Source: Rhodospirillales bacterium
GTDB taxonomy: Bacteria; Pseudomonadota; Alphaproteobacteria; Reyranellales; Reyranellaceae
DNA: 64,000 nt
Direction: 5' to 3'
NCBI GenBank assembly: GCA_016185145.1
Contig: JACPOB010000018.1
Coordinates: forward strand, 152,288-216,287
Shown here piece by piece: positions 20,662 to 38,135 of this stretch. The first letter of the stretch is position 1; each line of letters starts with the position of its first letter. The position numbers were made by a program, and so were the translations under genes. Under the pieces are notes generated by a model. It saw only the letters and a list, made by a program, of their open reading frames with translations. It searched no databases and was not told the origin of the DNA.

Positions 20662-20691
20662 TTGACAAGGTCAGTATTACTGACCTATTTA
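20662..20691 (+). promoter_or_regulatory. Promoter with embedded 19-bp palindromic operator, ahead of the aminotransferase pair
   Basis: TTGACA (20662-20667) and TATTTA (20686-20691) are separated by 18 bases. A perfect palindrome AGGTCAGTA-T-TACTGACCT (20668-20686) fills that spacer, so the binding protein would sit directly on the polymerase site. Another GTCAG follows at 20692. The regulator is not identifiable from sequence; the site also lies upstream of the divergent CDF exporter. Confidence 0.65.
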
Positions 20692-20757
20692 GTCAGAACC
20701 TTGCATTTTAGTGATTTCAAACGACCGATTTGGCAAAAATCGAGAGGAGGGATAGCA

Positions 20758-21687
20758 ATGTCCTTAGGCATGGATGACCGCGACGGTTTCATCTGGCTCG
20801 ACGGCAAGCTCGTGCCCTGGCGCGACAGCCGCATGCATGTGCTGACCCATGCCCTGCATTACGGCTCGGCCGTCTTCGAGGGCGAACGTATCTATGACGG
20901 CCGCGTCTTCCGCCTGGCTGCCCACAGCCAGCGCCTGATCAACTCGGCGCGTCTGCTCGACTACGAGATCCCCTGGACGCGCCAGCAGATCGAGGAAGCC
21001 ACCCGCGCCGTGGTGAAGGCCAATGGCCTGCAGTCGGGCTACGTGCGGCCGATCGCCTGGCGCGGCTCGGAGGTGATGGGCGTGTCGGCCATCGGCACCA
21101 CCGTGCATCTCGCCATCGCGCCGTGGGCCCAGGAGGGCCGGCTGTCGGTGCAGGCGCGCGATGCCGGCATCAACGTCACCATGGCCGGATACCGCCGGCC
21201 GTCGGCCGATTTCGCGCCGGGCCACGCCAAGGTGGCGGGCCTCTACCTGATCTGCGGCATCGAGAAGGACAAGGCGCTCAGGGCGGGCTTCGACGATGCG
21301 CTGATGCTCGACTGGAAGGGCGACCTCGCGGAATCGACCGGCGCCAACATTTTCCTGGTGATCGACGGCACCCTGGTGACGCCGACGCCGGAGAATTTTC
21401 TCGACGGTATCACGCGCCGCGCGGTCATGAGCCTGGCGAAGAAGCGCGGCTGGCCGGTCGAGGAACGCACGGTGAAGCCGCAGGAGCTCAGCCTCGCGAG
21501 CGAAGTTTTCCTCTGCGGCACGGCGGCCGAGATCGTGCCCGTCGGCTCGCTCGACGGACATCACTATCAGGCCGGCCCCGTTGCACGCACCCTGATGGCG
21601 GATTTCCAGAAACTGGTGCGGACGCCCGACTGCGAAGGCTTCGGCGAATCGACGCATCTTGCGCCGCCGGTCGACCGGGCGGCCTGA
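20758..21687 (+). CDS. ilvE: Branched-chain amino acid aminotransferase (bacterial IlvE type)
   Basis: PLP enzyme interconverting Leu, Ile and Val with their 2-oxo acids using 2-oxoglutarate/glutamate. The 309-residue fold-type IV protein has ALHYGSAVFEGERIY at 32-46, the Schiff-base lysine in GHAKVAGLYL (Lys158), the pyridine-nitrogen Glu192 in DLAESTGANIF, LDGITRRAV, and phosphate-binding LCGTAAEIVPV. ATG 20758 has a very strong GAGAGGAGGGA site. A second, different BCAT follows after 39 bases. Confidence 0.93.
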   Translation: MSLGMDDRDGFIWLDGKLVPWRDSRMHVLTHALHYGSAVFEGERIYDGRVFRLAAHSQRLINSARLLDYEIPWTRQQIEEATRAVVKANGLQSGYVRPIAWRGSEVMGVSAIGTTVHLAIAPWAQEGRLSVQARDAGINVTMAGYRRPSADFAPGHAKVAGLYLICGIEKDKALRAGFDDALMLDWKGDLAESTGANIFLVIDGTLVTPTPENFLDGITRRAVMSLAKKRGWPVEERTVKPQELSLASEVFLCGTAAEIVPVGSLDGHHYQAGPVARTLMADFQKLVRTPDCEGFGESTHLAPPVDRAA

Positions 21688-21726
21688 GTTCCTGTGCTAC
21701 AGTCACGGCAAACATCCGAGAGAACA

Positions 21727-22818
21727 ATGTCCAAGACCAAGCTTCAGTTCGTTCACCACCCTCATCCGTCGCCGGTGTCGGCCGACAAGCGCGCCGAGCT
21801 CCTGAAGAATCCGGGCTTTGGCCGCGTGTTCTCCGACCACATGGTCACCATCCGCTACCACGAGTCCAAGGGCTGGTACGACGCGCGCATCGAGCCTCGG
21901 GCGCCGATCGCGATGGATCCGGCATCGGCCGTCCTGCACTACGCGCAGGAAATCTTCGAAGGGCTGAAAGCCTATCGCACCAAGGATGGCGGGGCGACCA
22001 TGTTCCGTCCGATCGAGAATGCACGCCGCTTCCAGCAGTCGGCGGAGCGGCTGGCCATGCCGAGCCTGCCGGAGGAGCTGTTCCTCGAGGCCTGCGACCT
22101 CCTGGTCAAGACAGACCGCGCGTGGATTCCGGACGGCGACGGCAGCCTCTACATCCGGCCCTTCATGTTCGCCAACGAGATCTTCCTCGGCGTGAAGCCG
22201 TCGTCGGACTACTTGTTCATCGTCATCGCTTCGTCGGTCGGCTCGTACTTCAAGACCGATGCGCCGGCGGTGTCGCTCTGGGTGTCGCAGGAGTTCACCC
22301 GCGCGGCGCCGGGCGGCACGGGTGCCGCGAAGTGCGGCGGCAACTACGCGTCGAGCCTGCTCGCCCAGGCCGAGGCGACCCGCCACGGCTGCGATCAGGT
22401 CGTGTTCCTCGATGCCGTCGAGCAGAAGTGGGTCGAGGAGCTGGGCGGCATGAACATCTTCTTCGTCTTCGACGACGGCTCGATGGTGACGCCGCCGCTC
22501 GGCGGCACGATCCTGCCCGGCATCACGCGCTCCTCGCTGCTGACGCTCGCCAAGGACAAGGGCATCAAGGTGCGCGAGGACCGTTATTCGATCGACCAGT
22601 GGCGCACCGATGCGCAGAGCGGCCGACTGCGCGAGGCCTTCGCCTGCGGCACCGCCGCCGTGGTGACGCCAATCGGCACGGTGCGCAGCAAGGACGGCGA
22701 GTTCAAGATCGGCAACGGCGGGCCCGGCACCCGGACCGAGGACCTGAAGTCGGCCCTGGTCGGCATCCAGCGCGGCACGACGGCCGACAAGCACAGCTGG
22801 CTGCACAAGGTGTTTTAG
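21727..22818 (+). CDS. ilvE: Branched-chain aminotransferase, eukaryote-like long type
   Basis: A second fold-type IV BCAT, 363 residues, of the longer class (TIGR01123-like) found in eukaryotes and many bacteria. Signs: GWYDARIEPRAPIAMDPAS near 49, LHYAQEIFEGLKAYR at 70-84, AAKCGGNYASSLLAQ with Lys202, WVEELGGMNIFFV and LPGITRSSLLTLA. It is not a recent duplicate of the upstream gene; the two belong to separate subfamilies. Having both behind one operator suggests different substrates or directions (synthesis versus breakdown). ATG 21727 is preceded by GAGAGAA. Confidence 0.93.
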   Translation: MSKTKLQFVHHPHPSPVSADKRAELLKNPGFGRVFSDHMVTIRYHESKGWYDARIEPRAPIAMDPASAVLHYAQEIFEGLKAYRTKDGGATMFRPIENARRFQQSAERLAMPSLPEELFLEACDLLVKTDRAWIPDGDGSLYIRPFMFANEIFLGVKPSSDYLFIVIASSVGSYFKTDAPAVSLWVSQEFTRAAPGGTGAAKCGGNYASSLLAQAEATRHGCDQVVFLDAVEQKWVEELGGMNIFFVFDDGSMVTPPLGGTILPGITRSSLLTLAKDKGIKVREDRYSIDQWRTDAQSGRLREAFACGTAAVVTPIGTVRSKDGEFKIGNGGPGTRTEDLKSALVGIQRGTTADKHSWLHKVF

Positions 22819-26092: not shown

Positions 26093-26350
26093 ATGCAGAC
26101 CCGCAATCCGTTCATCGACGACCTTACGAAGATGGCCAACGGCGCCATGGGCGCGTTGACCGGCGTGAAGGACGAGGTCGAGGCCCGTGTCCGCGACCAG
26201 ATCGCCAAGATCCTGGATGGCATGGACATCCCCCGCCGCGACGAGTTCGAGGCGGTCAAGGCCATGGCCGCCAAGGCGCGCGAGGAGAACGAGGAACTGA
26301 AGAAGCAGATCGCCGAGCTGCAGGCCAAGCTCGCCGGGCCCCGGAGCTGA
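26093..26350 (+). CDS. UbiK/BMFP-type accessory factor
   Basis: An 85-residue protein: short N-terminal helix NPFIDDLTKMANGAMGAL, then RDQIAKILDGMDIPRRDEFE, then a C-terminal coiled coil AREENEELKKQIAELQAKL. This is the membrane fusogenic/UbiK pattern (DUF526), associated with ubiquinone synthesis under aerobic conditions. The true start is ATG 26093 with AGGAG upstream. The stop TGA overlaps the next ATG (TGATG), so it is joined to the hydantoinase genes, an odd pairing. Confidence 0.88.
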   Translation: MQTRNPFIDDLTKMANGAMGALTGVKDEVEARVRDQIAKILDGMDIPRRDEFEAVKAMAAKAREENEELKKQIAELQAKLAGPRS

Positions 26351-28365
26351 TGCGCGTCGGCGTCGAGGTCGGCGGCACCTTCACCGACCTGGTGGCCGTC
26401 GAAGGCGGCAAGGTCGTCGTCACCAAGGTTCCGAGCACCCCTCGGAGTCCCGACATCGGCGCCTTCGCGGCGCTCACCGCCTCGGGCATCGATCTGGCGA
26501 AGATCGAGGACCTCGGCCACGGCTCGACGGTCGCCACCAACGCCGTGCTCGAGCGCAAGGGGGCTGCGGTCGCCTTCGTGGCCACGGCCGGCTTCCGCGA
26601 TCTGCTGTTCATGCAGCGCCACGACCGGCGCAACATCTACGACCTGTTCTATGCCAAGCCGGCGCCGCCGGTGCGCCGCAAGGATTGCTTCGAGGCGCCC
26701 GAACGTCTCGGGGCCGACGGTTCGATCGAGAAGCCGCTCGACGAAGCCTTCGTCAAAAGCGAGCTGATCCCCGCCATCAAGGCCGGAGGCTATCGCGCCG
26801 TCGCGATCTGCCTGCTCAATGCCTATGCCGATCCGGTGCACGAGAAGCGGCTGGCGGCGCTGATCACCGACGCGCTGCCCGATGTGCTGGTGACGGCGAG
26901 CCACCAGGTGGCGCGCGAGTTCCGTGAATTCGAGCGCGCCTCGACGACGCTGCTGTCGGCCTACGTGCAGCCCGTGATCGACGGCTACCTGCATCGCTTC
27001 GAGAGCAAGCTTGCGGAGTCCGGCTTCAAGGGCCGTTTCACGGTGATGCAGTCCAACGGCGGACGTCTGCCGGCCGAGGCGATGCGCGAAAGCGCCATCA
27101 CCGCGCTCTATTCCGGTCCGGCCGCGGGCGTGGTCGGCGCGACGCGCCAGGCCGCCCGCTCGGGCTTCAACGATCTCATCACCTTCGACATGGGCGGCAC
27201 CTCGACCGACGTCTGCCTGGTGCAGGACGGAAGGCCCTCACTCGCCTCGGAAAGCGAGATCGACGGCCTGCCCATCCGCACGCCCGTGCTCGACATCGTT
27301 TCGGTCGGCGCGGGCGGCGGCTCGATCGCCTGGGTCGACGACGGCGGCATGCTGCGCGTCGGTCCGCAAAGCGCCGGCGCCGACCCCGGTCCGGCCTGCT
27401 ACGGCAAGGGCGGCACCGATCCCGCCACGACCGACGCGCATATCGTCATCGGCACCATCCGGCCCGGCGCCTTTTTGGGCGGCCGCATGAGCCTCGACGG
27501 CGAGGCGGCCAAGCGTGCCTTCGAGCCGCTGGCACAGCGTTTCGGCCTCAGCGTCGAGCAGGCCGCGTCGTCGGCCCTGCAGCTCGCCGACGCCAACATC
27601 GTGCGCGCCATCCAGCTCGTCTCGACCGAGCGCGGCCGCGATCCGCGTGACTATGCCCTGGTACCGTTCGGCGGCGCGGGGCCGCTGCATGCCGCGCGCA
27701 TCGCTGAGGAGCTCGGCATCTCGACCATCGTCGTGCCGCCCAATGCCGGCGTGATCTCGGCCTATGGCCTGGTCGCCTCGGACTACACCAAGTTCGACGC
27801 CGTCACGCGCAAGATGAAGCTCGACGACGTGGCGGCCAAGGAAGCCGGCCGCATTTTCAGCGAGATGCGCGCGCGGCTCGCCGCACAGTTCGCCGACATG
27901 AAGCTGCCGGGCGATCTTGTCTACACACACACGCTCGACATGCGCTTCGTCGGCCAGGCCTTCGAGGTCGGCGTGGAAGTGCCGGCCAATCGCCTCGCCT
28001 CGCTCGACGCGGCCTACCTCGCCGAGCTGTTCGCGGACGCCCATCACCGCACCTTCATGCACGGCGCCACGCTCGACCGGCCGGTCGAGATCGTGACCCT
28101 GCGCGTGGGCGCGACGCTGCCGATCGGGACGGCGCCGCGGCTCGACCGCGAGACGCTGGCCGCGCGCGGTCCGGAGAAGGCAAAGATCTTCCATGGCGAG
28201 GCCTGGATCGACTGCACCCGCCATACCGCCGAGGCCCTGACGGCGGGCCAGAAAATCGACGGCCCCGCCGTGATCGAAGGCTACACCGCCACGACCTGGG
28301 TGCCGCCCGGCTGGGCGGCGACGCTCGATCCGGCGGACAATCTCATCCTGCGGAGATCGTCATGA
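26350..28365 (+). CDS. Hydantoinase/oxoprolinase subunit A (HyuA-type)
   Basis: The ATP-using subunit of the N-methylhydantoinase/5-oxoprolinase/acetone-carboxylase group, 671 residues. Actin-like ATPase motifs: VEVGGTFTDLV at about 4-14, GSTVATNAVLER near 59, YSGPAAGVVGATRQA near 257 and ITFDMGGTSTDVCLV near 277. It acts with subunit B, whose ATG overlaps the stop by four bases. The substrate (hydantoin, 5-oxoproline or a ketone) cannot be decided from sequence; no hydantoin-specific gene is beside it. Confidence 0.92.
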   Translation: MRVGVEVGGTFTDLVAVEGGKVVVTKVPSTPRSPDIGAFAALTASGIDLAKIEDLGHGSTVATNAVLERKGAAVAFVATAGFRDLLFMQRHDRRNIYDLFYAKPAPPVRRKDCFEAPERLGADGSIEKPLDEAFVKSELIPAIKAGGYRAVAICLLNAYADPVHEKRLAALITDALPDVLVTASHQVAREFREFERASTTLLSAYVQPVIDGYLHRFESKLAESGFKGRFTVMQSNGGRLPAEAMRESAITALYSGPAAGVVGATRQAARSGFNDLITFDMGGTSTDVCLVQDGRPSLASESEIDGLPIRTPVLDIVSVGAGGGSIAWVDDGGMLRVGPQSAGADPGPACYGKGGTDPATTDAHIVIGTIRPGAFLGGRMSLDGEAAKRAFEPLAQRFGLSVEQAASSALQLADANIVRAIQLVSTERGRDPRDYALVPFGGAGPLHAARIAEELGISTIVVPPNAGVISAYGLVASDYTKFDAVTRKMKLDDVAAKEAGRIFSEMRARLAAQFADMKLPGDLVYTHTLDMRFVGQAFEVGVEVPANRLASLDAAYLAELFADAHHRTFMHGATLDRPVEIVTLRVGATLPIGTAPRLDRETLAARGPEKAKIFHGEAWIDCTRHTAEALTAGQKIDGPAVIEGYTATTWVPPGWAATLDPADNLILRRSS

Positions 28366-30029
28366 GCCAGCTGAGCGCCATCGACTATGCCGTGATCAGC
28401 CAGGCGCTGATCGCCGCCGCCCGCGAGATGGGCGTAAAACTGATCCGCTCGGCCTATTCGACGATCCTGCGCGAGGCGCGCGACGGCTCGGCCGGCCTGA
28501 TGGACCGCGACGGCAACACGGTGGCGCAGGCCGAGCTCATTCCCATGCAGCTCGGCCCGATCGGCGAGACGCTGCGCGCTTGCCTGAAGCGCCATCCCGT
28601 CGAGACCCTCGAGGAAGGCGACTTCCTGATCAACAACGACCCGTTCGAGGGCGGCCAGCACATCCCCGACGTCTTCATCTTCACGCCGATCTTCGTCAGC
28701 GGCCGGGTCGTGGGCTTCGGCGCCTCGGTGGCGCATCACCTCGATCTCGGCGGCGGCGCGCCCGGCCTCAACATCCATGCCTCCGACGTCTACCAGGAAG
28801 GCCTGCGCTTCCCGCCCAGCAAGTACGATTTTAAGCGCGACTGGAACGGCGGTGCCTTCGAACGTCTCGTCACTGCCAACGTGCGTGTGCCCGATCTCAC
28901 CATCGGCGACTTCAACGCGCAGTTCGCCGCCAATGCGATCGGCGTATTGCGCGTAAAGCAGCTTTGCGAGCGCTATGGCGCCGACAAGGTCGAAGCGGCG
29001 ATGAAGGAGATGCAGGACTACTCCGAGCGTCGCGTGCGCGCCGCCATCGCCCAGGCGCCCAAAGGCACGTTCTACGGCGAGGATGCCGTCGACGACGATG
29101 GCCTGACGGACGACCCGCTGGTGGTGAAAGCCAAGGTCACGATCGCCGACGATTCAGTGGAAATCGACTTCGAGGGCACCTGCCCGCAGGTCAAGCGCAA
29201 CCTCAACTGCCCCTACTCCTCGACCTTGTCGGCGGCGCTCTCCTGCGTGAAGTCGGTGCTGACCAGCCCGGACATTCCCTACAACGAGGGCATGGCGCGG
29301 CCGATCCGCATCAAGGTGCCCTACGGCTCGCTGCTGAACCCGCGGCCGCCGGCGCCGGTGCGCGCGCGCATGATCCCGGCCTATCGCGTGTTCAACGCCG
29401 TGATGAAGGCGATGGCCCAGGCGCTGCCCGACAAGGTGATTGCCACCGGCTACGACTGCACGACGGCCTTCTGCCTCAGCCATCTCGGCGAGAAGGGTTA
29501 TAGCGTCTACCTGGAGATCTTCGGCGGCGGCTACGGCGCTTCCAAGGACGCCGACGGCTGCGACGCGGTCGATTCGCCGCTCAGCAACTGCTCCAACGCG
29601 CCGGTCGAATCGCTCGACATCGACTACGACTTCTTTCGCATCGTCGGCTACGAGCTCGCGCCCGACTCATTCGGCCTCGGCGCCCGCCGCGGCGGCGCCG
29701 GCTTCTTCCGCCGCTGCGAGATCCTGAGGGACGACGTCCAGCTCGCGATCTACTCGGACCGCTTCCGCCTCGCACCGGAAGGCCTGCAGGGCGGCGAGGC
29801 CGGCCAACGCGGCTACTGCCGAGTCCATCGCGCCAACGGCACCGTCGAGGATCTGCGCAGCAAGGCCGCCGTCGACCTCGCCAAGGGCGACATGGTGGAA
29901 ATGTTCGTGGGCGGTGGCGGCGGCTTCGGTCGCATCTCCGAGCGCCCGGACTCGCTGATCGAGCGCGACCTTGCGGATGGCCTGCTGACACGCGATCCGA
30001 GGTCGGCACGAAAGCTGGCGGCAGAATAG
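28362..30029 (+). CDS. Hydantoinase/oxoprolinase subunit B (HyuB-type)
   Basis: The partner subunit, 555 residues. Typical HyuB text: SAYSTILREARDGSAGLMD near 25-43, LINNDPFEGGQHIPDVF near 87-103, VAHHLDLGGGAPG near 126-138, and a C-terminal LGARRGGAGFFRR and PEGLQGGEAGQ. ATGA overlap with subunit A at 28362. The last third ends before a 450-base gene-poor region. Together with HyuA it forms the catalytic complex in the cytosol. Confidence 0.92.
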   Translation: MSQLSAIDYAVISQALIAAAREMGVKLIRSAYSTILREARDGSAGLMDRDGNTVAQAELIPMQLGPIGETLRACLKRHPVETLEEGDFLINNDPFEGGQHIPDVFIFTPIFVSGRVVGFGASVAHHLDLGGGAPGLNIHASDVYQEGLRFPPSKYDFKRDWNGGAFERLVTANVRVPDLTIGDFNAQFAANAIGVLRVKQLCERYGADKVEAAMKEMQDYSERRVRAAIAQAPKGTFYGEDAVDDDGLTDDPLVVKAKVTIADDSVEIDFEGTCPQVKRNLNCPYSSTLSAALSCVKSVLTSPDIPYNEGMARPIRIKVPYGSLLNPRPPAPVRARMIPAYRVFNAVMKAMAQALPDKVIATGYDCTTAFCLSHLGEKGYSVYLEIFGGGYGASKDADGCDAVDSPLSNCSNAPVESLDIDYDFFRIVGYELAPDSFGLGARRGGAGFFRRCEILRDDVQLAIYSDRFRLAPEGLQGGEAGQRGYCRVHRANGTVEDLRSKAAVDLAKGDMVEMFVGGGGGFGRISERPDSLIERDLADGLLTRDPRSARKLAAE

Positions 30030-30481: not shown

Positions 30482-31396
30482 TCACAGCGCCCCGACCGAC
30501 CGCAGATAGAGGTCGCTCGCCTCCTTCGTCACCGGACCGGGCTTGCCATCAGCGATCAGCCGACCATCGATCTTCGTCACCGCCGTGACCCCGCCCAGGG
30601 TCCCTGTCACGAAGGCCTCGTCTGCCGAATAGACCTGCGCCAGGCTGAAGTCGCACTCGCGCGCGACGTTGCCGGCCTTGCGCCAGGCGTCGATCACGTT
30701 GGCCTGGGTAATGCCCTTGAAGCTGTAGAAGCCGGTCGAGGTCCAGAGCTCGCGGCCGCGCACGATGAAGAAGTTGGTCGAGTTGCAGGAGGCGACGAAG
30801 CCTCGCGGGTCGAGCATCAGGGCCTCGTCGGCGCCGGCGTTGATCGCCTGGATGAGCGCCTGGATCAGGTTCAGGCGGGAATGGGAATTCAGGCGCAGGT
30901 CGAACTGATCGGGTCCGGTGGTGCGGAAGGTCGAGGTGAAAAGCGCGTAGCCCTTGGCCTTGGCTTCGGGCAATGGCGTCTTGTACTCTGCCACGATCAC
31001 GATCGTGGCGGGGCCGATCACGAAGCGCGGGTCCTGGTTGGGTGTCTTCTTGACGCCGCGCGTCACCATGAGGCGGACATGCGCGCCGTCGGTCATGCCG
31101 TTGCGGTCGAGCGTGTCCTGCACGGCCTTGACCACGCCCTCGCGCGTGAGCCCGATGTCGAGCTGGATCGAGCGCGCGCCCTCGAACAGGCGGTCGAGAT
31201 GCGCTTCCAGGCTGATCAGCCTGCCCTTCACCAGCCGCAGCCCTTCCCACACCCCGTCGCCCAGCACGAAACCCGAATCGAACACCGAGACCCGTGCCTC
31301 GTTGCGCGACGCGAACTGCCCGTTCACATAGACCAGAACGCTGTCGTTGCGCGCGTCGGCCTTGTAGGCCTGCGCGCTCGCCTGCTCCGTCGTCAT
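30482..31396 (-). CDS. Class IV aminotransferase-fold protein without the PLP lysine
   Basis: A 304-residue fold-type IV protein: VFDSGFVLGDGVWEGLRL at 38-55, HVRLMVTRG at 106-114, GADEALMLDPRGFV at 188-201 and TGTLGGVTAV near 268. A gapless alignment with 4-amino-4-deoxychorismate lyase places the Schiff-base lysine at Asn170 (NSHSRLN); there is no Lys between 149 and 226. The Glu that contacts the PLP ring nitrogen reads Ser203 (FVASCNSTNFF). The two BCATs in this window keep both residues. So the ordinary transaminase reaction is doubtful. It is ten bases ahead of an amino-acid ABC operon on the same strand, being its last gene. Confidence 0.75.
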   Translation of the reverse strand: MTTEQASAQAYKADARNDSVLVYVNGQFASRNEARVSVFDSGFVLGDGVWEGLRLVKGRLISLEAHLDRLFEGARSIQLDIGLTREGVVKAVQDTLDRNGMTDGAHVRLMVTRGVKKTPNQDPRFVIGPATIVIVAEYKTPLPEAKAKGYALFTSTFRTTGPDQFDLRLNSHSRLNLIQALIQAINAGADEALMLDPRGFVASCNSTNFFIVRGRELWTSTGFYSFKGITQANVIDAWRKAGNVARECDFSLAQVYSADEAFVTGTLGGVTAVTKIDGRLIADGKPGPVTKEASDLYLRSVGAL

Positions 31397-31406
31397 GCTG
31401 ATGCTC

Positions 31407-32147
31407 CTAGAGACTGAATTCCTGGTGGCGGGCCAGGAAGGCCTGCGTGCGCTCGCGCCGCGGGTGCTTCAGCACTTCGTCGGGCGTGCCCTGCTCGTGG
31501 ATCGTGCCGTCGGCCAGGAAGATGACGCGCGTCGCCACGTGATAGGCGAAGCCGAGCTCGTGGGTGACCAGCAGCATGGTGCGGCCCTCCTCGGCCAGCG
31601 ACCGGATGACGCCCAGCACCTCGCCAACCAGCTCGGGATCGAGCGCGGAGGTCGGCTCGTCGAACAGCAGCAGCTCGGGATCCATGGCGAGCGCGCGGGC
31701 GATGGCGACGCGCTGCTTCTGGCCGCCCGAGAGATGTGCCGGATAGTGCGCGGCCTTGTCGGCCAGCCCGACCCGCGCCAGCTCGCGCTCGGCGCGCGCC
31801 TGGGCGTCGGGCTTGCTCATGCGGCGCACCGTGCGCAGGCCCTCCATGACGTTGCCGAGCGCCGTCATGTGCGGGAAGAGGTTGAACTGCTGGAACACCA
31901 TGCCGATGCGCTGCCGCACCTGCGCCAGCTCGGCTTCGCGACGGCCGACGACCTTGCCGTCGAGCGTGATGGTGCCGGCGTCGGGTATTTCCATGAAGTT
32001 GAGGCAACGCAGCAGCGTCGACTTGCCTGAGCCCGAAGCGCCCAGCACGGCGATGCGCTCGCCCTTCTCCACGTCGAGGTCGATGCCCCTGATGACGTCG
32101 TTGCCGCCGAAGCGCTTGATGAGCCCGCTGACCTTGAGGATGGTCAT
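31407..32147 (-). CDS. Polar amino acid ABC transporter, ATP-binding protein
   Basis: A 246-residue GlnQ/HisP-type ATPase: Walker [10 protein letters not shown] (36-44), Q-loop [18 protein letters not shown], signature [16 protein letters not shown], Walker [15 protein letters not shown] and H-loop LVTHELGFA. The true start is ATG 32147, overlapping the permease stop by four bases. It energises the two permeases upstream. The longer frame upstream belongs to another reading of the permease. Confidence 0.94.
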
Positions 32148-32806
32148 TCGTCCCTCGCCAGTCGCCGTTCCAGCACGTAGGTGAGCTGCACCAGCGGCCA
32201 GAGGAAGACGAAGAAGATCAGGGCGACGGCCGTATAGGCCTCGATGGGATTGAAGTTCAGCGAGGCGATCAGCTTGGCCTGCTGCAGCAGCTCGACATAG
32301 GCGATGGCCGAAGCCAGCGTCGACATCTTGAAGATCTCGATGGCGCGGTTGGTCAGCGCCGGCGTCATGCGCTTCAACGCCTGCGGCAGGATGATGCGTC
32401 GCATGGCCTGCAGGAAGGTCATGCCGAGCGCCCGCGCGCCGTCCCACTGGCCGCGATCGATCGACTGGATGCCGGCGCGATAGATCTCGGCCGAGAATGC
32501 CGCCGAGTTGAGCGAGATGCCGAGCGACGCCGCCGCCAGGGGACTGATCGAGAAGGGCATCAGGATCGGCAGGGCGAAGTAGAACCAGATGATCTGCACC
32601 AGCACCGGCGTGTTGCGGAAGAATTCGACGAACGCGGTCGCCGGCCAGTAGAAGACGCGCCGCTGCGAATAGCGTCCCAGCCCGACCACCAGGCCGAAGC
32701 TGAGGCCCGCGACCAGGCAGATGGCGAAGATGCGCAGCGTGCCGAGAGCACCGACGGCGAAGACGTCGGCATTGGCGAGGATAGACGCGAAGTCCCATTG
32801 GTGCAT
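32144..32806 (-). CDS. Polar amino acid ABC transporter permease
   Basis: A 220-residue inner-membrane permease of the HisM/GlnP type with about five TM helices. The N-terminal [12 protein letters not shown] is typical, and the EAA loop reads [22 protein letters not shown] near 125-146. Codes for one half of a heterodimeric channel with the paralogous permease upstream (one base apart). Confidence 0.92.
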
Positions 32807-32807
32807 G

Positions 32808-33488
32808 TCAGTGCACCGTCGATTCGCCGCTGACGGCGAGCCGCCGCTCGAGCCGGCGCGCCAGCAGGCTCATAGCCGTGATGACGACGAAGTAGATCAG
32901 CGCCGCGACGGTGAAGGTCTCGAGCGGCCTGAATGTCTTCTGGGCGATCTCGTTGGCGGCGAACAGCAGGTCGGCATAGGCGATGGTGGCGACCAGGGTC
33001 GTGGTCTTCATGAGCTCGACGGCGCGCTCCATGAAGGCCGGGATCATGCGCTTGACCGCCTGCGGCAGGACGATGCGGCGCAGCGCCTGGCTGTGCGTCA
33101 TGCCGATCGCCCGAGCGCCGTCCCACTGGCCGCGCTCGACCGAGACGATGCCGGCGCGGAACACCTCGGCGAAGAAGGCGGCCGACTGGATCGAAAAGGT
33201 GACGATCGCCGCCAGCAGCGGCGTCATCTCGATGCCCGCGATCAGCGGCAGGGCGAAGAAGAACCAGAAGAGCTGCACCAATGGCGGCGTGGTGCGGAAC
33301 ACTTCTATGACGAAGCCAGCGGGCCACGACGCCAGCCGATGCCGCGACAGCCGCATCAGGGCAAACCCCAACCCCAGCACCAGGCCACAGGCGAGCGAGG
33401 CGCCGGTGACCTTGAGCGTGTTCAACAGGCCCTGCGCCAACAGCTCGCTGTTGGCGAAGACCGGGGTGAAGTCCCACTGGTAGGCCAT
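32808..33488 (-). CDS. Polar amino acid ABC transporter permease (second)
   Basis: A 226-residue paralogue of the previous gene: begins MAYQWDFTPVFANSELLAQG, with TM segments and the EAA loop GARAIGMTHSQALRRIVLPQA near 125-145. The two permeases share the WDF start, indicating an old duplication. It lies seven bases after the binding-protein stop. Confidence 0.92.
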   Translation of the reverse strand: MAYQWDFTPVFANSELLAQGLLNTLKVTGASLACGLVLGLGFALMRLSRHRLASWPAGFVIEVFRTTPPLVQLFWFFFALPLIAGIEMTPLLAAIVTFSIQSAAFFAEVFRAGIVSVERGQWDGARAIGMTHSQALRRIVLPQAVKRMIPAFMERAVELMKTTTLVATIAYADLLFAANEIAQKTFRPLETFTVAALIYFVVITAMSLLARRLERRLAVSGESTVH

Positions 33489-33494
33489 GGAAGC

Positions 33495-34328
33495 CTACTT
33501 GATCATCTCCTTCATGACCGGCGGCGCGAGCTTCGGATCGAGCCCGAAGTCGGCGAGCGCGGCCTCGTACCATTTCTGCGTCTGGCCGCTCTTGTAGAAG
33601 CCGGCGAGCTGCTTATCGACCCAGGCCACGAACTCCGGATCGTTCTTGCGGATGGCCGCGCTGGAGGCCTGCGACTGCGCCGGCGTCGGCACCACGATCT
33701 TGCCCTTGCCGAGACGCTGGCGGGCGGCCAGCAGCGGCGGATGGAACAGGCACACGGCGTCGACACGGCCCGACTGGAACGCCGCAATGGCCGCGGCATT
33801 GTCGGGGAAGCGCTGCAGGTCGGCCTTGGCGGCATGCTCGCTGACGAAGCGGTCCATCGACGAGGCCTGCGGCACGGCGATGCGCACGCCGGGCTTGTTG
33901 AGGTCTTCCCAGGTCTTCGCCGGCAGATCATCGCGCGCCAGCACGGCCAGTGAGTAATAGAGCAGCGGCGATTCCGGGAAGTCGACGGCCTGCTTACGCT
34001 CCGGCGTAGCGTCGAGCATGAACATGATGTCGATCTTGTCGGACTGAAGGGCTGCGATGGCGTTGCCCCAGCTCACCTCGACGGTCTCGAGCTTGACGCC
34101 CAGCGCATCGGCCATCGCCTTGCCCATGGAGATGCCGAGACCCGACGACCACTGGCCGGTCTTGGGATCCTTGGAGAACCACGGCGGCGCCTGGGTGACG
34201 CCGACGCGGAAGGTGCCGCGCTTCCTGGCCTCCTCGATGGTGCCGGCGTGCGCGGGCAGCAACGGCAAGGCTGCCGCAGCGAGTCCCCAGGCGGTCCCGG
34301 CCAGGACCTTGCGGCGCTTGATCGTCAT
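33495..34328 (-). CDS. Amino acid ABC transporter substrate-binding protein
   Basis: Periplasmic family-3 solute-binding protein, 277 residues. The start MTIKRRKVLAGTAWGL has a twin-arginine-type motif and signal peptide ending near LPAHAG. Mature segments RVGVTQAPPWFSKD, SGLGISMGKAMADALG and DIMFMLDATPERKQAVDF fit the type II fold. The ligand is not identifiable. ATG 34328 overlaps the GntR stop by four bases, so regulator and transporter are one transcript. Confidence 0.92.
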   Translation of the reverse strand: MTIKRRKVLAGTAWGLAAAALPLLPAHAGTIEEARKRGTFRVGVTQAPPWFSKDPKTGQWSSGLGISMGKAMADALGVKLETVEVSWGNAIAALQSDKIDIMFMLDATPERKQAVDFPESPLLYYSLAVLARDDLPAKTWEDLNKPGVRIAVPQASSMDRFVSEHAAKADLQRFPDNAAAIAAFQSGRVDAVCLFHPPLLAARQRLGKGKIVVPTPAQSQASSAAIRKNDPEFVAWVDKQLAGFYKSGQTQKWYEAALADFGLDPKLAPPVMKEMIK

Positions 34329-35083
34329 GTCGTGTTTCCCTTCCTCGATTCCCCCGAAACGAACTTCTCCGTGACCACGGCGCCGCGGCGCATGTGGTCG
34401 GCGATCTCCAGACGCAGCGCGTCGAGATCGTCGCCCAAGGCGGCCTTGATGTAGCTGTCGTGACTGTCCCGCCTTGGGCCGCGCATGCCGTGCGCCCGGT
34501 GATGGGCCGCCCAATAGAGTTGCAGGCGGCCGCGCAGCCCATGCCATGCGCGCTGCAGCAGCTTGTGGCCGCTCGTCTCGAAGACCAGGCCGTGCAGCTC
34601 GAGCTCGGTCGAGATGCTGGTGCGGTCGTCGCCGGCATCGATGCTGGCCAACAGCGCCTCGTTGCGCCGATGGAGCTCGCGGCTGAAGCGATCGTCGCGA
34701 CGCTCCCACACCTGCTCGAAGGCGAAGATCTCCAGCGCCGTGCGCAGGGAATAGATCTCGCGCACGTCCTCGACCGAAAGCGCGGCGACGTGAGTGCCGG
34801 TGTAGGGCACCGTCACCAGCAGCCCTTCCTCGATGAGCTGACGCATCGCTTCGCGCAGCGGCCCGCGGCTGACATTGAAGCGCGTCGACAGTGCCGCCTC
34901 GGTCAACGGCGCGCCCGGGGCGACGTCGCCCGCCAGGATCGCCGCCCGCAAGCGCTCGGCGATATGGGCACGCAAAGTCGCCTTGGGGACCGGCCCAAGG
35001 CCGAGTCCCGGCGCAGAAAGGTCGGAAAGAGCCAAATCACCCTCGAAAATCTGGTTGATCGTCGATTGTTGACAATCTGGCAC
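34325..35083 (-). CDS. GntR-family regulator with FadR-type C-terminal domain
   Basis: A 252-residue regulator: winged helix about residues 35-100 (LRAAILAGDVAPGAPLTEAAL, FNVSRGPLREAMRQL), then an all-helical FCD domain with metal-ligand-type His and Asp. It is first in the transporter operon and may sense the imported amino acid. GTG 35083 is the annotated start; TTG 35035 is possible and would place the palindrome 35064-35077 in the leader rather than in codons 3-7. Confidence 0.9.
   Translation of the reverse strand: MPDCQQSTINQIFEGDLALSDLSAPGLGLGPVPKATLRAHIAERLRAAILAGDVAPGAPLTEAALSTRFNVSRGPLREAMRQLIEEGLLVTVPYTGTHVAALSVEDVREIYSLRTALEIFAFEQVWERRDDRFSRELHRRNEALLASIDAGDDRTSISTELELHGLVFETSGHKLLQRAWHGLRGRLQLYWAAHHRAHGMRGPRRDSHDSYIKAALGDDLDALRLEIADHMRRGAVVTEKFVSGESRKGNTT
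35064..35077. promoter_or_regulatory. GntR-like 14-bp palindrome at the regulator's start
   Basis: GATTGTTGACAATC is an inverted repeat (GATTGT-TG-ACAATC), similar to GntR/FCD sites built on TTGT..ACAA. Likely autoregulation. Confidence 0.5.
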
Positions 35084-35121: not shown

Positions 35122-35466
35122 TTACGCAGCCTTACCTTTCGCCTTGGAGCGCGTCCTGCCGACGTTGCGCAGCAAAATCGGTTCGTGCTCAGGAAACTCC
35201 ACAATGAGGTGTAGCTGCCCGCCCATCGCGTCGATGTACTTGGTCAAAGTCGACAAGCGCGGATCTTCACGGCTCTCCAGGCGCGAGATGCTGACCTGCT
35301 TCACGCCCAGGCGCTTGGCCATGGAGACTTGGGTGCGGTTGCGTGCCTGCCGCAGTTCGCGCAGCGCCATGTGACGCTTGGCAATTCTACCGGCCGTGCG
35401 ACGGATGGCGGCACGCTCCTTCGGTGTGAACAACTCTCGCATCATGTCTTCGAACTTCACGGGCAT
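35122..35466 (-). CDS. HigA-type antitoxin (XRE-family HTH)
   Basis: A 114-residue antitoxin-like protein. The HTH is TQVSMAKRLGVKQVSISRLESRED near the middle, and the C-terminal half continues TLTKYIDAMGGQLHLIVEFPE, a common XRE antitoxin ending. ATG 35466 (AGGAGATAGGC upstream) is two bases after the toxin stop, the toxin-first HigBA order. The longer frame above it is not used. Confidence 0.85.
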   Translation of the reverse strand: MPVKFEDMMRELFTPKERAAIRRTAGRIAKRHMALRELRQARNRTQVSMAKRLGVKQVSISRLESREDPRLSTLTKYIDAMGGQLHLIVEFPEHEPILLRNVGRTRSKAKGKAA

Positions 35467-35468
35467 GC

Positions 35469-35828
35469 CTATCTCCTGTTGGCACCTCGCAAGGCGGCGA
35501 GATGCTCGTCGAGCCGAGCGTCGGCGGTCGCAATCAGCCGCCGGTAGAACCGATTCGACGCAACGCCGGACTTGCTTGCGCCGACCAGCAACATCGCTCT
35601 CCGGCGCGGATCGAAGGCATAGGCAATGCGCCATTCGCCGTCGCCTACGCTGAACCTCAACTCCTTCATGTTCTTGTGCTGCGATCCCTTCAGTGCGTCG
35701 GCGTAGGGCCGCCCCAGCATTGGACCAACCAGCTCAAGCGTCGCGATAGCCGTGGCTGCCGCCCTCTGAACATCATGCCGCCAAGTCCTGAACTCACCGG
35801 CAACGTCTCGTGGAACTCGACTGCCCAA
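35469..35828 (-). CDS. HigB/RelE-type toxin with a frameshifted 5' end
   Basis: Most of the toxin body is intact: GPMLGRPYADALKGSQHKN, MKELRFSVGDGEWRIAYAFDP and RRRAMLLVGASKSG match the Gp49/HigB mRNA-interferase core. The conserved amino terminus (WxVEFHE) is absent from this frame. It is present in the next frame: residues LTAWAVEFHE are encoded at about 35807-35836 and would join DVAGEFRTW here if one base were restored near 35804-35812 (CACGAGACG on the minus strand). In this frame only a TTG at 35828, without ribosome site, is available, and the alternative frame starts with CTG. The gene is probably inactive or a sequencing error. Confidence 0.6.
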   Translation of the reverse strand: MGSRVPRDVAGEFRTWRHDVQRAAATAIATLELVGPMLGRPYADALKGSQHKNMKELRFSVGDGEWRIAYAFDPRRRAMLLVGASKSGVASNRFYRRLIATADARLDEHLAALRGANRR

Positions 35829-35907: not shown

Positions 35908-36354
35908 TCAGTATGTCTTGTAGCCCAGGAACTTGCCCGACATCCCGATCTTCACGCGGTCGCCCTTCTGGTCGGGCTGGCGTTCCATGGTCATGTCGAA
36001 GTCGATCGCCGACATGATGCCGTCGCCGAACTCCTCCTGGATCAGCTCCTTCCAGGTCGTGCCGTAGACCTGCACCAGTTCGTAGAAGCGGTAGATCAGC
36101 GGATCGGTCGGCGGCACCTGGGGCAGCGAGCCGCGATAGGGCACCTCCTGCAGGAGCAGCGTCTCTTCCTTGCCGAGACCGAACAGCTTGGCGGCCTTGG
36201 TCGCCTGCTCCTTGGTCATCTTCATCTGGCCCATGCAGGCCGCCGTGACGACGATCTTGGAGGCACCGCCGATCTTCTTGGCGATCTCCTCCCAGGTGAG
36301 CTCCTTCAGGCGCTTGGCGGTGAGGATCTTCTCCGTGACTTCTGCCCGTTTCAT
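35908..36354 (-). CDS. cynS: Cyanate hydratase (cyanase)
   Basis: Converts cyanate and bicarbonate to ammonia and CO2 (via carbamate), giving nitrogen. The 148-residue enzyme keeps the catalytic set of the E. coli enzyme (Arg96, Glu99, Ser122): here Arg89 and Glu92 in IYRFYELVQVYGTTWKE, and Ser115 in GDGIMSAIDF. N-terminal HTH-like domain about 1-60. It is the distal gene after the transporter genes of a cyn operon; the ATPase gene stop is 22 bases upstream. Confidence 0.95.
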   Translation of the reverse strand: MKRAEVTEKILTAKRLKELTWEEIAKKIGGASKIVVTAACMGQMKMTKEQATKAAKLFGLGKEETLLLQEVPYRGSLPQVPPTDPLIYRFYELVQVYGTTWKELIQEEFGDGIMSAIDFDMTMERQPDQKGDRVKIGMSGKFLGYKTY

Positions 36355-36376
36355 TGCGTGTCTCCGTCTTGCTTGT

Positions 36377-37276
36377 TCAATGGGTGTGCCGAAGCGGCAC
36401 GACTTCGGCCGGCGGATTCACCGCCGCCAGGCCCGGCTTCACCAGCTTCAGCCGGCGCGGGTCGTAGCTGCCGCCCGCGATCTCCTGGTCGAACGCCTTG
36501 GAGCGGTTGACCAGGAACTCCACCAGGTGGTTGCGGATGGCGTAGTACTGTGGATGACGATGCAGGTCGTTCCGATGCCGCTCGTTGCGCGGCATGGTGT
36601 TGACCACGATCTCGGCGATCTTCGCCCCCGGCCCGTTGGTCATCAGCACGATCTTGTCGGCAAGCAGGATCGCCTCGTCGACGTCGTGGGTGATCATGAA
36701 CACGGTCTGCTGGGTGTCGGCGCAGATGCGTAAAACCTCGTCCTGCAGCATGCCGCGGGTCAGCGCGTCGAGGGCGCTGAACGGCTCGTCCATCAGCAGC
36801 ATCTTGGGCTGGATCGAGAGCGCGCGGGCGATGCCGACGCGCTGCTTCATCCCGCCCGAGAGCTGTGCGGGACGCTTGCTCTCCGCGCCTTTCAGTCCGA
36901 CCAGCTCGATGAACTTGCGCGAATGCTCGTGCACCTTGGCCTTGTCCCACTTGGGCCAGCGCGAGGAGACGGCGAAGGCAATGTTGCCCATCACCGTCAG
37001 CCACGGCAGCAGGGCATGGCCCTGGAAGATCACGGCGCGATCGAGGCTGGGGCCGTCGATCTCGCGGTTGTCGACGATGACGGCGCCGTCGCTCGGCTGG
37101 TCGAGACCGGCCAGCACATTGAGGATCGTGGTCTTGCCGCAGCCGGAATGGCCGATCAGGCAGACAAACTCGCCGCGGTCGATGCCGAACCAGATGTTCT
37201 CGAACACCGCGGGCTGGCGCCGGTCGTCGCCGAAGCGGCGCGCCAGGCCTTCGACGCTGATGAGAGGGCGTTCCAT
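36377..37276 (-). CDS. Cyanate/nitrate-type ABC transporter ATP-binding protein
   Basis: A 299-residue ATPase of the NrtD/CmpD/SsuB group: Walker [10 protein letters not shown] (42-50), Q-loop [13 protein letters not shown], signature [16 protein letters not shown], Walker [13 protein letters not shown] and [11 protein letters not shown]-terminal tail of about 40 residues extends beyond a typical SsuB. Sits between permease (five bases) and cynS. Cyanate is inferred from the neighbouring cyanase. Confidence 0.92.
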
Positions 37277-37280
37277 TGCA

Positions 37281-38135
37281 CTATTCCGGGTAGGTCACGA
37301 GCCTGGTGAGCCTCGCCAGCCCCTGGTCGAGCAGCAGCCCGACCACGCCGATCAGCAGGATGGCGGTGACGATGTTGGCGATCGAGAGGTTGTTCCACTC
37401 GTTCCACACGAAGTAGCCGATGCCGGTGCCGCCCACGAGCATCTCGGCCGCGACGATCACCAGCCAGGCGATGCCGATGGAGATCCTCATACCGGTCATG
37501 ATGGTGGGCGCGGCCGCCGGCAGGATCACCTTGAAGGCGGTGCGGAACGGCCCGACCTCCAGCGTGCGCGCCACGTTCAGCCACTCCTTGCGCACGCTCG
37601 CCACGCCGAACGCCGTATTGATCAACATCGGCCACACCGAGCAGATGAAGATCACGAAGATCGAGGAGATGGCGCTGTCCTTGATGGTGTAAAGCGCCAA
37701 GGGCATCCAGGCGAGCGGCGACACCGGCTTCAGGATCTGGATGAAGGGATCGAGCGCACGATACACGAGCGGCGACATGCCGATCAGGAAGCCCAGCGGC
37801 ACGGCGACCAGCGCCGCCAGCCCGAAGCCCAGAAGCACCCGGCCCAGCGAGTAGGCGAGCTGGATGCCGATACCCTTGTCGTTGGTGCCCTTCACGTAGA
37901 ACGGGTCCAGCAGGTGCTTCCAGATGGTGACGCCGATGTCGGCCGGCGTCGGCATCGCCGACTTGGACCCGGTCGCCGCCGCGGCGCCGACCAGCTTCGC
38001 GTACTCGGGATCGACCGCCGGGCCGCTGGCGGCCGGCGGTTGCGCCGCGATCTGCCACAGACCGACGATGGCGGCGAAGATCAGCAGCGACAGCAGCGCG
38101 GCGCGCAGGCCGAGCGACTTCTTCAGGGTGTCCAT
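37281..38135 (-). CDS. Cyanate/nitrate-type ABC transporter permease
   Basis: A 284-residue NrtB/CynB-type permease with about six TM helices: [18 protein letters not shown] first, a periplasmic-facing linker, then the EAA loop [20 protein letters not shown]. It is the membrane channel of the cyn operon and starts eight bases after the binding-protein stop. Confidence 0.92.

Follow-up and report, generated by a model that had tools for sequence, protein, structure and literature searches.

The nearest solved relative of the protein considered here is an 'aminotransferase-like protein' of Variovorax paradoxus (PDB ID: 7z79, released in 2022). The gene for our protein lies at positions 30482–31396 (-) of a 64,000-nucleotide stretch of contig JACPOB010000018.1 from a Rhodospirillales bacterium; the whole stretch is called the window below, and the protein the window protein. 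The two proteins are 62–66% identical and homologous over their full length, with asparagine at the position of the Schiff-base lysine and the motif SCNSTNFF. A later entry, 9j32 (released in 2025), is the N174K variant of 7z79, Asn174 there being Asn170 in the window protein. Since such a variant has been deposited, the missing lysine was already noticed by others. In the open-licence literature, outside which most subscription papers lie, we found no article on 7z79 or 9j32, no report of a ligand or activity, and nothing on a lysine-less clade of fold type IV. The lysine-less feature itself is therefore already present in the PDB; what is added here is a tree that includes a histidine type, together with the fusions to and co-occurrence with PF19798 (Sulfotransfer_5).

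Among solved proteins that carry the lysine, the nearest are the archaeal branched-chain amino acid aminotransferases (BCATs) of Archaeoglobus fulgidus (5mqz) and Geoglobus acetivorans (5e25 and 5cm0), at 34–38% identity. They have the same fold and the same phosphate cup, and they keep both the lysine and the glutamate that contacts the pyridine nitrogen of the cofactor, whereas Asn and Ser stand at these positions in the window protein, which also has Trp50 and His106. The lysine is likewise present in D-amino acid aminotransferase, of which 1g2w is the E177S mutant. A precedent for loss of the lysine is found in the nucleotide-sugar 3-dehydratases ColD, E1 and SpnQ, in which the catalytic lysine is replaced by histidine and the cofactor is pyridoxamine 5'-phosphate (PMP). 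In its part on ColD and E1, PMC8987622 gives this replacement as the main difference between these PMP-dependent dehydratases and aminotransferases, with the histidine acting as both acid and base. However, these enzymes are of fold type I, unrelated to the window protein, and act on sugars, while the window protein is a PF01063 protein of fold type IV. For ordinary aminotransferases, a section of PMC9309667 treats the roles of residues of E. coli IlvE, cited there as K160, E194 and T258, and one of PMC7221256 deals with another aminotransferase in which a glutamate lies at the ring nitrogen.

The 304-residue window protein, characterized here from its open reading frame, Pfam, alignment and related loci, has Aminotran_4 (PF01063) as its sole Pfam match (139 bits vs a cut-off of 28.5), and thus belongs to the class IV, fold-type-IV aminotransferases. 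In a phmmer alignment to 5mqz that is gapless across residues 124–226, residue 170 stands opposite the lysine of NIKSLNYL and is asparagine (codon AAT, 30887–30889 (-)), and residue 203 stands opposite the glutamate of YVSEGSGDN and is serine (codon TCC, 30788–30790 (-)). An earlier note on this DNA had placed Asn and Ser at the same two positions by alignment to 4-amino-4-deoxychorismate lyase, and both assignments are reproduced with the archaeal BCAT. The note had also claimed that no lysine lies within residues 149–226, which agrees with lysines at 146 and 148 and the next at 227, and that two BCATs of the window retain both residues, as is seen in the motifs GHAKVAG and LAESTG (20662–21687) and AAKCGG and VEELGG (21694–22818). 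The phosphate cup, made up of an arginine, a G-I/V-T motif and a threonine, is kept in the window protein as Arg69 (31190–31192 (-)), Thr230 in a GIT motif (30707–30709 (-)) and Thr266 in a GT motif (30599–30601 (-)). None of 18 matches to NCBIfam models of BCAT, D-amino acid aminotransferase and 4-amino-4-deoxychorismate lyase reaches its curated cut-off, the best being PRK08320 with 236.8 bits vs 363. The predicted model of the window protein has a mean pLDDT (predicted local distance difference test) of 82.5 and is weak at residues 1–8 and 38–46. Both residues that define an aminotransferase were tested for and are missing, so the protein should not be classed as one.

The substitutions are a property of the whole family, which settles a check named beforehand in the earlier note. 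Asn170, Ser203 and His172 (30881–30883 (-)) are present in 80 of 80 other related genome loci, and each of the best 120 among 8000 database proteins (the query included) has them too. When 398 genomes of the phylum were searched with a profile, at most five candidates being scored per genome, 41 members reached at least 330 bits, all with Asn at the lysine position. The next score is only 191 bits; 46 matches lie below this gap, and each of the ten that were fetched has both Lys and Glu. Across 120 distinct members of this Asn type, Asn170, His172, Trp50, His106, Gln121, Asn205 and Ser220 are invariant, and 15 Lys-bearing rows mostly differ at these positions. The cup residues Arg69, Thr230 and Thr266 are also invariant in the Asn type. 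Position 203 is Ser in 88 and Thr in 32 (Glu in 15 of 15 Lys-bearing rows). At position 174 (30875–30877 (-)), 88 members carry Arg, among them the whole window branch, and 32 carry Lys, while the Lys-bearing rows show Tyr, Leu or Trp; position 116 (31049–31051 (-)) is Lys in 116 and Arg in four. No lysine is invariant anywhere among these 120 aligned members. The ratio of nonsynonymous to synonymous substitution rates (dN/dS) against nine close orthologues is 0.05–0.19. In a tree of 98 chosen rows, the Asn group lies entirely to one side of a single branch with support of 100/100; six loci (L005, L088, L007, L118, L126 and L136) were left out as copies of rows already included.

One relative bears on the distribution of the gene: G139, of the same genus as the window genome and rated 100% complete, gave no family match at E 1e-40 with five of its 25 candidates scored. 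Some members of the genus may therefore lack the gene.

Distant Asn-type members (42–58% identity) often have their gene beside that of a protein of about 240 residues, which is the called next gene in 13 of 20 fetched regions, and all three such neighbours tested are PF19798 proteins. The portions of PMC12506393 and PMC11625862 in which PF19798 appears merely list it. A strong PF19798 match (at least 179 bits) was found in 36 of the 398 genomes, and all 36 also hold an Asn-type protein, which 41 genomes have in total (Fisher p 4e-46, a value that assumes independent genomes, which these are not). In 27 of the 36 genomes the two genes adjoin and in nine they lie apart, so the link is more than mere synteny. 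The five Asn-type genomes in which no PF19798 was found are the window genome, three others of the window branch (G247, G334 and G222) and one with a distant-branch member (G280). Thus in the window genome PF19798 is neither fused nor adjacent to the gene nor present elsewhere, as it is in relatives. Twenty genomes hand-picked from the 80 loci were checked for both families, and each yields a single match to the aminotransferase-fold family at E 1e-60. Five of them, from Pararhodobacter and Paracoccus, hold PF19798 with the window-branch copy as the only family match; Alloyangia has a PF19798 fragment with a stop, and the remaining 14 have none. The five genomes suggest that the window-branch copy has replaced a PF19798-linked one and that the biochemistry of the two is interchangeable, the native state of the relatives being a guess from family f13.

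The two domains also occur in one chain, in bacteria as well as in eukaryotes. A search limited to long proteins found 66, of which 21 were counted as fusions, with the sulfotransferase half first and a near-complete aminotransferase half; P0142, P0157, P0174, P0179 and P0183 were excluded by name and also fail the length rule. The uncounted proteins include many aminotransferase-first chains with incomplete halves, which may be frame-shifted neighbours, and some without one of the domains. Over all 66, position 170 is Asn in 39, His in 20, a gap in five, and Pro and Glu in one each. Nine of the 21 fusions are of an Asn/Thr type and include green algal proteins (P0133 and P0153); P0153 is the 'Branched-chain-amino-acid aminotransferase-like protein 2' of Tetrabaena socialis, the aminotransferase half of which falls in the same lysine-less clade. 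The other 12 have His at the lysine position with the Glu kept, mostly in the motifs DPKIHHNNL and FVAETNATH, and among them is a eukaryotic transcript, EG_transcript_5935 (P0154), probably from Euglena. The best 118 of 5780 relatives of one His-type fusion all have His170 and Glu203, and nearly all are unfused. They keep Arg69, Thr230 and Thr266 without exception, Arg69 being shared by the 15 Lys-bearing rows as well. We note that this His/Glu family (P0127, P0129–P0132, P0154 and P0187–P0304) is large and often named BCAT, with source names that include Planctomycetes-type, actinobacterial and gammaproteobacterial ones besides the probable Euglena transcript.

A tree of 88 chosen rows places the His and Asn types as sister groups, jointly split from 11 Lys rows at 100/95. 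Both lysine-less types have Trp50, Arg108 and Asn205, and also His106 apart from a single His-type fusion row; Lys116 is almost constant in them and is found in 118 of 118 His-type proteins. Most simply, the lysine was lost once, with the Glu kept initially and later lost in the Asn type; the caveat is that the Lys-bearing outgroup branches are long, as flagged by treekit for both trees.

The window branch is tied to a transporter, unlike the fusions. As claimed in the earlier note, the gene belongs to an amino-acid ATP-binding cassette (ABC) operon. An ATPase of polar amino-acid type lies directly upstream (31407–32147 (-)), followed by permease 2 (BPD_transp_1, 32144–32806 (-)), permease 1 of the amino-acid (HEQRo) type (TIGR01726 above its cut-off, 32808–33488 (-)), a substrate-binding protein (SBP; SBP_bac_3, 33495–34328 (-)) and a GntR/FCD regulator with an uncertain start codon (34325–35083 (-)). 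In 68 of the 80 loci an ATPase with at least 60% identity directly adjoins the gene on the same strand, and in 60 of the 80 an SBP and a permease are also nearby. The ABC genes adjoin the gene in alpha-, beta- and gammaproteobacterial loci. Variovorax-type loci have the same operon parts in a different order, that of 7z79 being ATPase, aminotransferase-fold gene, SBP, permeases and GntR. The operon SBP resembles SBPs for lysine/arginine/ornithine and for cystine, all matches being under the cut-off. Scans for promoters, terminators and Rfam elements around the operon gave nothing clearly above chance. In the distant-branch regions that show the PF19798 partner, none of the ABC genes adjoins. 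Four bins labelled Chloroflexi or Thermoflexus (L048, L050, L054 and L056) contain copies that share about 80% identity with the window protein and have no ABC genes adjoining; these may reflect transfer or mis-binned contigs.

The results directly support the residue losses and their conservation, the single clade, the retention of the cup, the ABC operon and a tie between the clade and PF19798. The window protein is most likely a repurposed, conserved protein and not a broken enzyme. As to what it does, we tentatively favour an enzyme that holds vitamin B6 or another phosphate ligand non-covalently, with no lysine aldimine, over a pure binder and over a B6-free enzyme. We propose that one old fold-type-IV clade lost its Schiff-base lysine once and then rebuilt the pocket, dividing into a type with His and the Glu kept and a type with Asn and Ser or Thr, to which the window protein belongs. 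The protein would still bind a ligand that carries phosphate, the likeliest candidate being B6 as PMP or pyridoxal 5'-phosphate (PLP), held without an internal aldimine, and in the window operon it would handle an amino acid, or a derivative, brought in by the neighbouring ABC transporter. Asn170, His172, Arg174 and Lys116 may take over the acid-base or binding work of the lysine, as the histidine does in ColD and E1. The His/Glu type, which is closer to ColD and E1 than the Asn/Ser type, would fit such a scheme within fold type IV; the Asn/Ser type may carry out B6 chemistry with a neutral ring, use another phosphate ligand, or only bind. An ordinary ping-pong transaminase is not expected. 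Save for the ColD/E1 precedent, we infer this scheme from the anatomy of the pocket.

Several observations weigh against the proposal. It is the phosphate cup that points to B6 binding, and the Asn type also lacks the Glu by which the pyridine nitrogen stays protonated, so that B6 chemistry is harder to argue for. ColD has its His at the lysine position, while the window protein has Asn there and a His two residues on. The ATPase does not adjoin the gene in 12 of the 80 loci, and no single substrate suggests itself for both the ABC and the sulfotransferase settings. One genome (G344) has a weak PF19798 match (62 bits) without an Asn-type protein, and G280 has a distant-branch member without PF19798. 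In its broadest form the proposal is that the whole clade, as the fold-type-IV counterpart of ColD and E1 in His/Glu and Asn/Ser(Thr) versions, acts on B6 (PMP/PLP) or another phosphate ligand with no need of a Schiff-base lysine. Together with a PF19798 enzyme it would make up a functional unit, both in bacteria and in algae, which in the window branch would have been switched to an amino-acid importer. We regard this broad form as less likely than not.

The closest competitor is a non-catalytic binder, in which the fold and cup hold a metabolite (an amino acid, a PLP-amino acid adduct or another phosphate compound) and tune the ABC transporter or the GntR regulator. In its favour, the gene is the only one in the conserved run besides the regulator and transporter parts, and it has lost both key catalytic residues with the cup retained. 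However, the same family pairs with a sulfotransferase-like partner where no ABC genes of this operon adjoin, the five Pararhodobacter and Paracoccus genomes suggest shared biochemistry over transporter control, and the invariant polar residues suit catalysis equally well; we regard a binder as rather unlikely. We would give a lower rank to a PLP-independent enzyme that catalyses some new reaction, with an amino acid or sulfated compound as substrate, its cup serving the substrate or a phosphate like that of PAPS (3'-phosphoadenosine 5'-phosphosulfate). The Asn type has lost both B6-specific residues and the partner domain is sulfotransferase-like. Against this, the Glu with which proteins of this fold contact the B6 ring is retained in the sister His type, and B6 binding was thus probably ancestral to the clade. 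The earlier note was right in expecting a used protein with another role, a view now strengthened by the family-wide loss, the single change on the tree, the remodelled conserved positions and purifying selection. Its preference for a non-PLP or ligand-sensing role is less well sustained: because the cup is kept in all aligned members and the sister clade keeps the Glu, non-covalent B6 binding is possible.

A relocated lysine would restore an ordinary aldimine, formed by Lys116, possibly from the neighbouring subunit, or by a basic residue at 174. In BCAT structures, the loop around position 116 could reach the active site of the partner subunit, and Lys116 is nearly constant in both lysine-less types, with Lys174 in 32 of the 120 Asn-type members. 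However, Arg replaces Lys116 in four members and occupies position 174 throughout the window branch, so that no lysine is invariant, and we consider this explanation improbable. Another lysine at C4' of PLP, which the earlier note had named as an outcome contrary to its claim, finds no support in the aligned sequences. The absence of both key residues could also come from a dying pseudogene, or a sequencing or assembly error, of an ordinary BCAT. This is ruled out for practical purposes by the same residues in all 80 loci and the best 120 database relatives, by the low dN/dS, and by ABC genes adjoining across three proteobacterial classes.

Returning to the surroundings of the operon, hydantoinase/oxoprolinase A and B genes lie at 26350–28365 (+) and 28362–30029 (+), convergent with it. 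They were rejected as a general partner: a close hyuB was counted in only 26 of the 80 loci, some of whose contigs end early, and all 26 are among those nearest the window (L008–L040 and L060), with convergent orientation. Among the matches listed, no other neighbour recurs across the family. Individual cases are MmgE/PrpD in three Pseudomonas loci (L081, L085 and L086; Pfam run on one copy), a flavin adenine dinucleotide oxidoreductase and an aldehyde dehydrogenase in Paracoccus L082, OCD/mu-crystallin in Alloyangia L071, and PhoU with two-component genes in Pararhodobacter L072. Beyond the regulator, 35122–35828 (-) holds genes for a short helix-turn-helix protein and for a small partner, which we take to be toxin-antitoxin-like, and 35908–38135 (-) holds what is presumably a cyanate lyase beside a nitrate/cyanate-type ABC ATPase and permease. 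Two Arabidopsis 'BCAT-like' proteins may be land-plant members of the clade; searches by gene number returned nothing, and they are not used as evidence here.

The sources that name these proteins mostly call them 'branched-chain amino acid aminotransferase', which the loss of the catalytic lysine makes unlikely. A large, conserved clade without this lysine is a natural experiment on a B6 fold deprived of its lysine. With two such types to compare (His/Glu and Asn/Ser), a sulfotransferase-like partner, and a solved structure together with its lysine variant, the question is directly testable.
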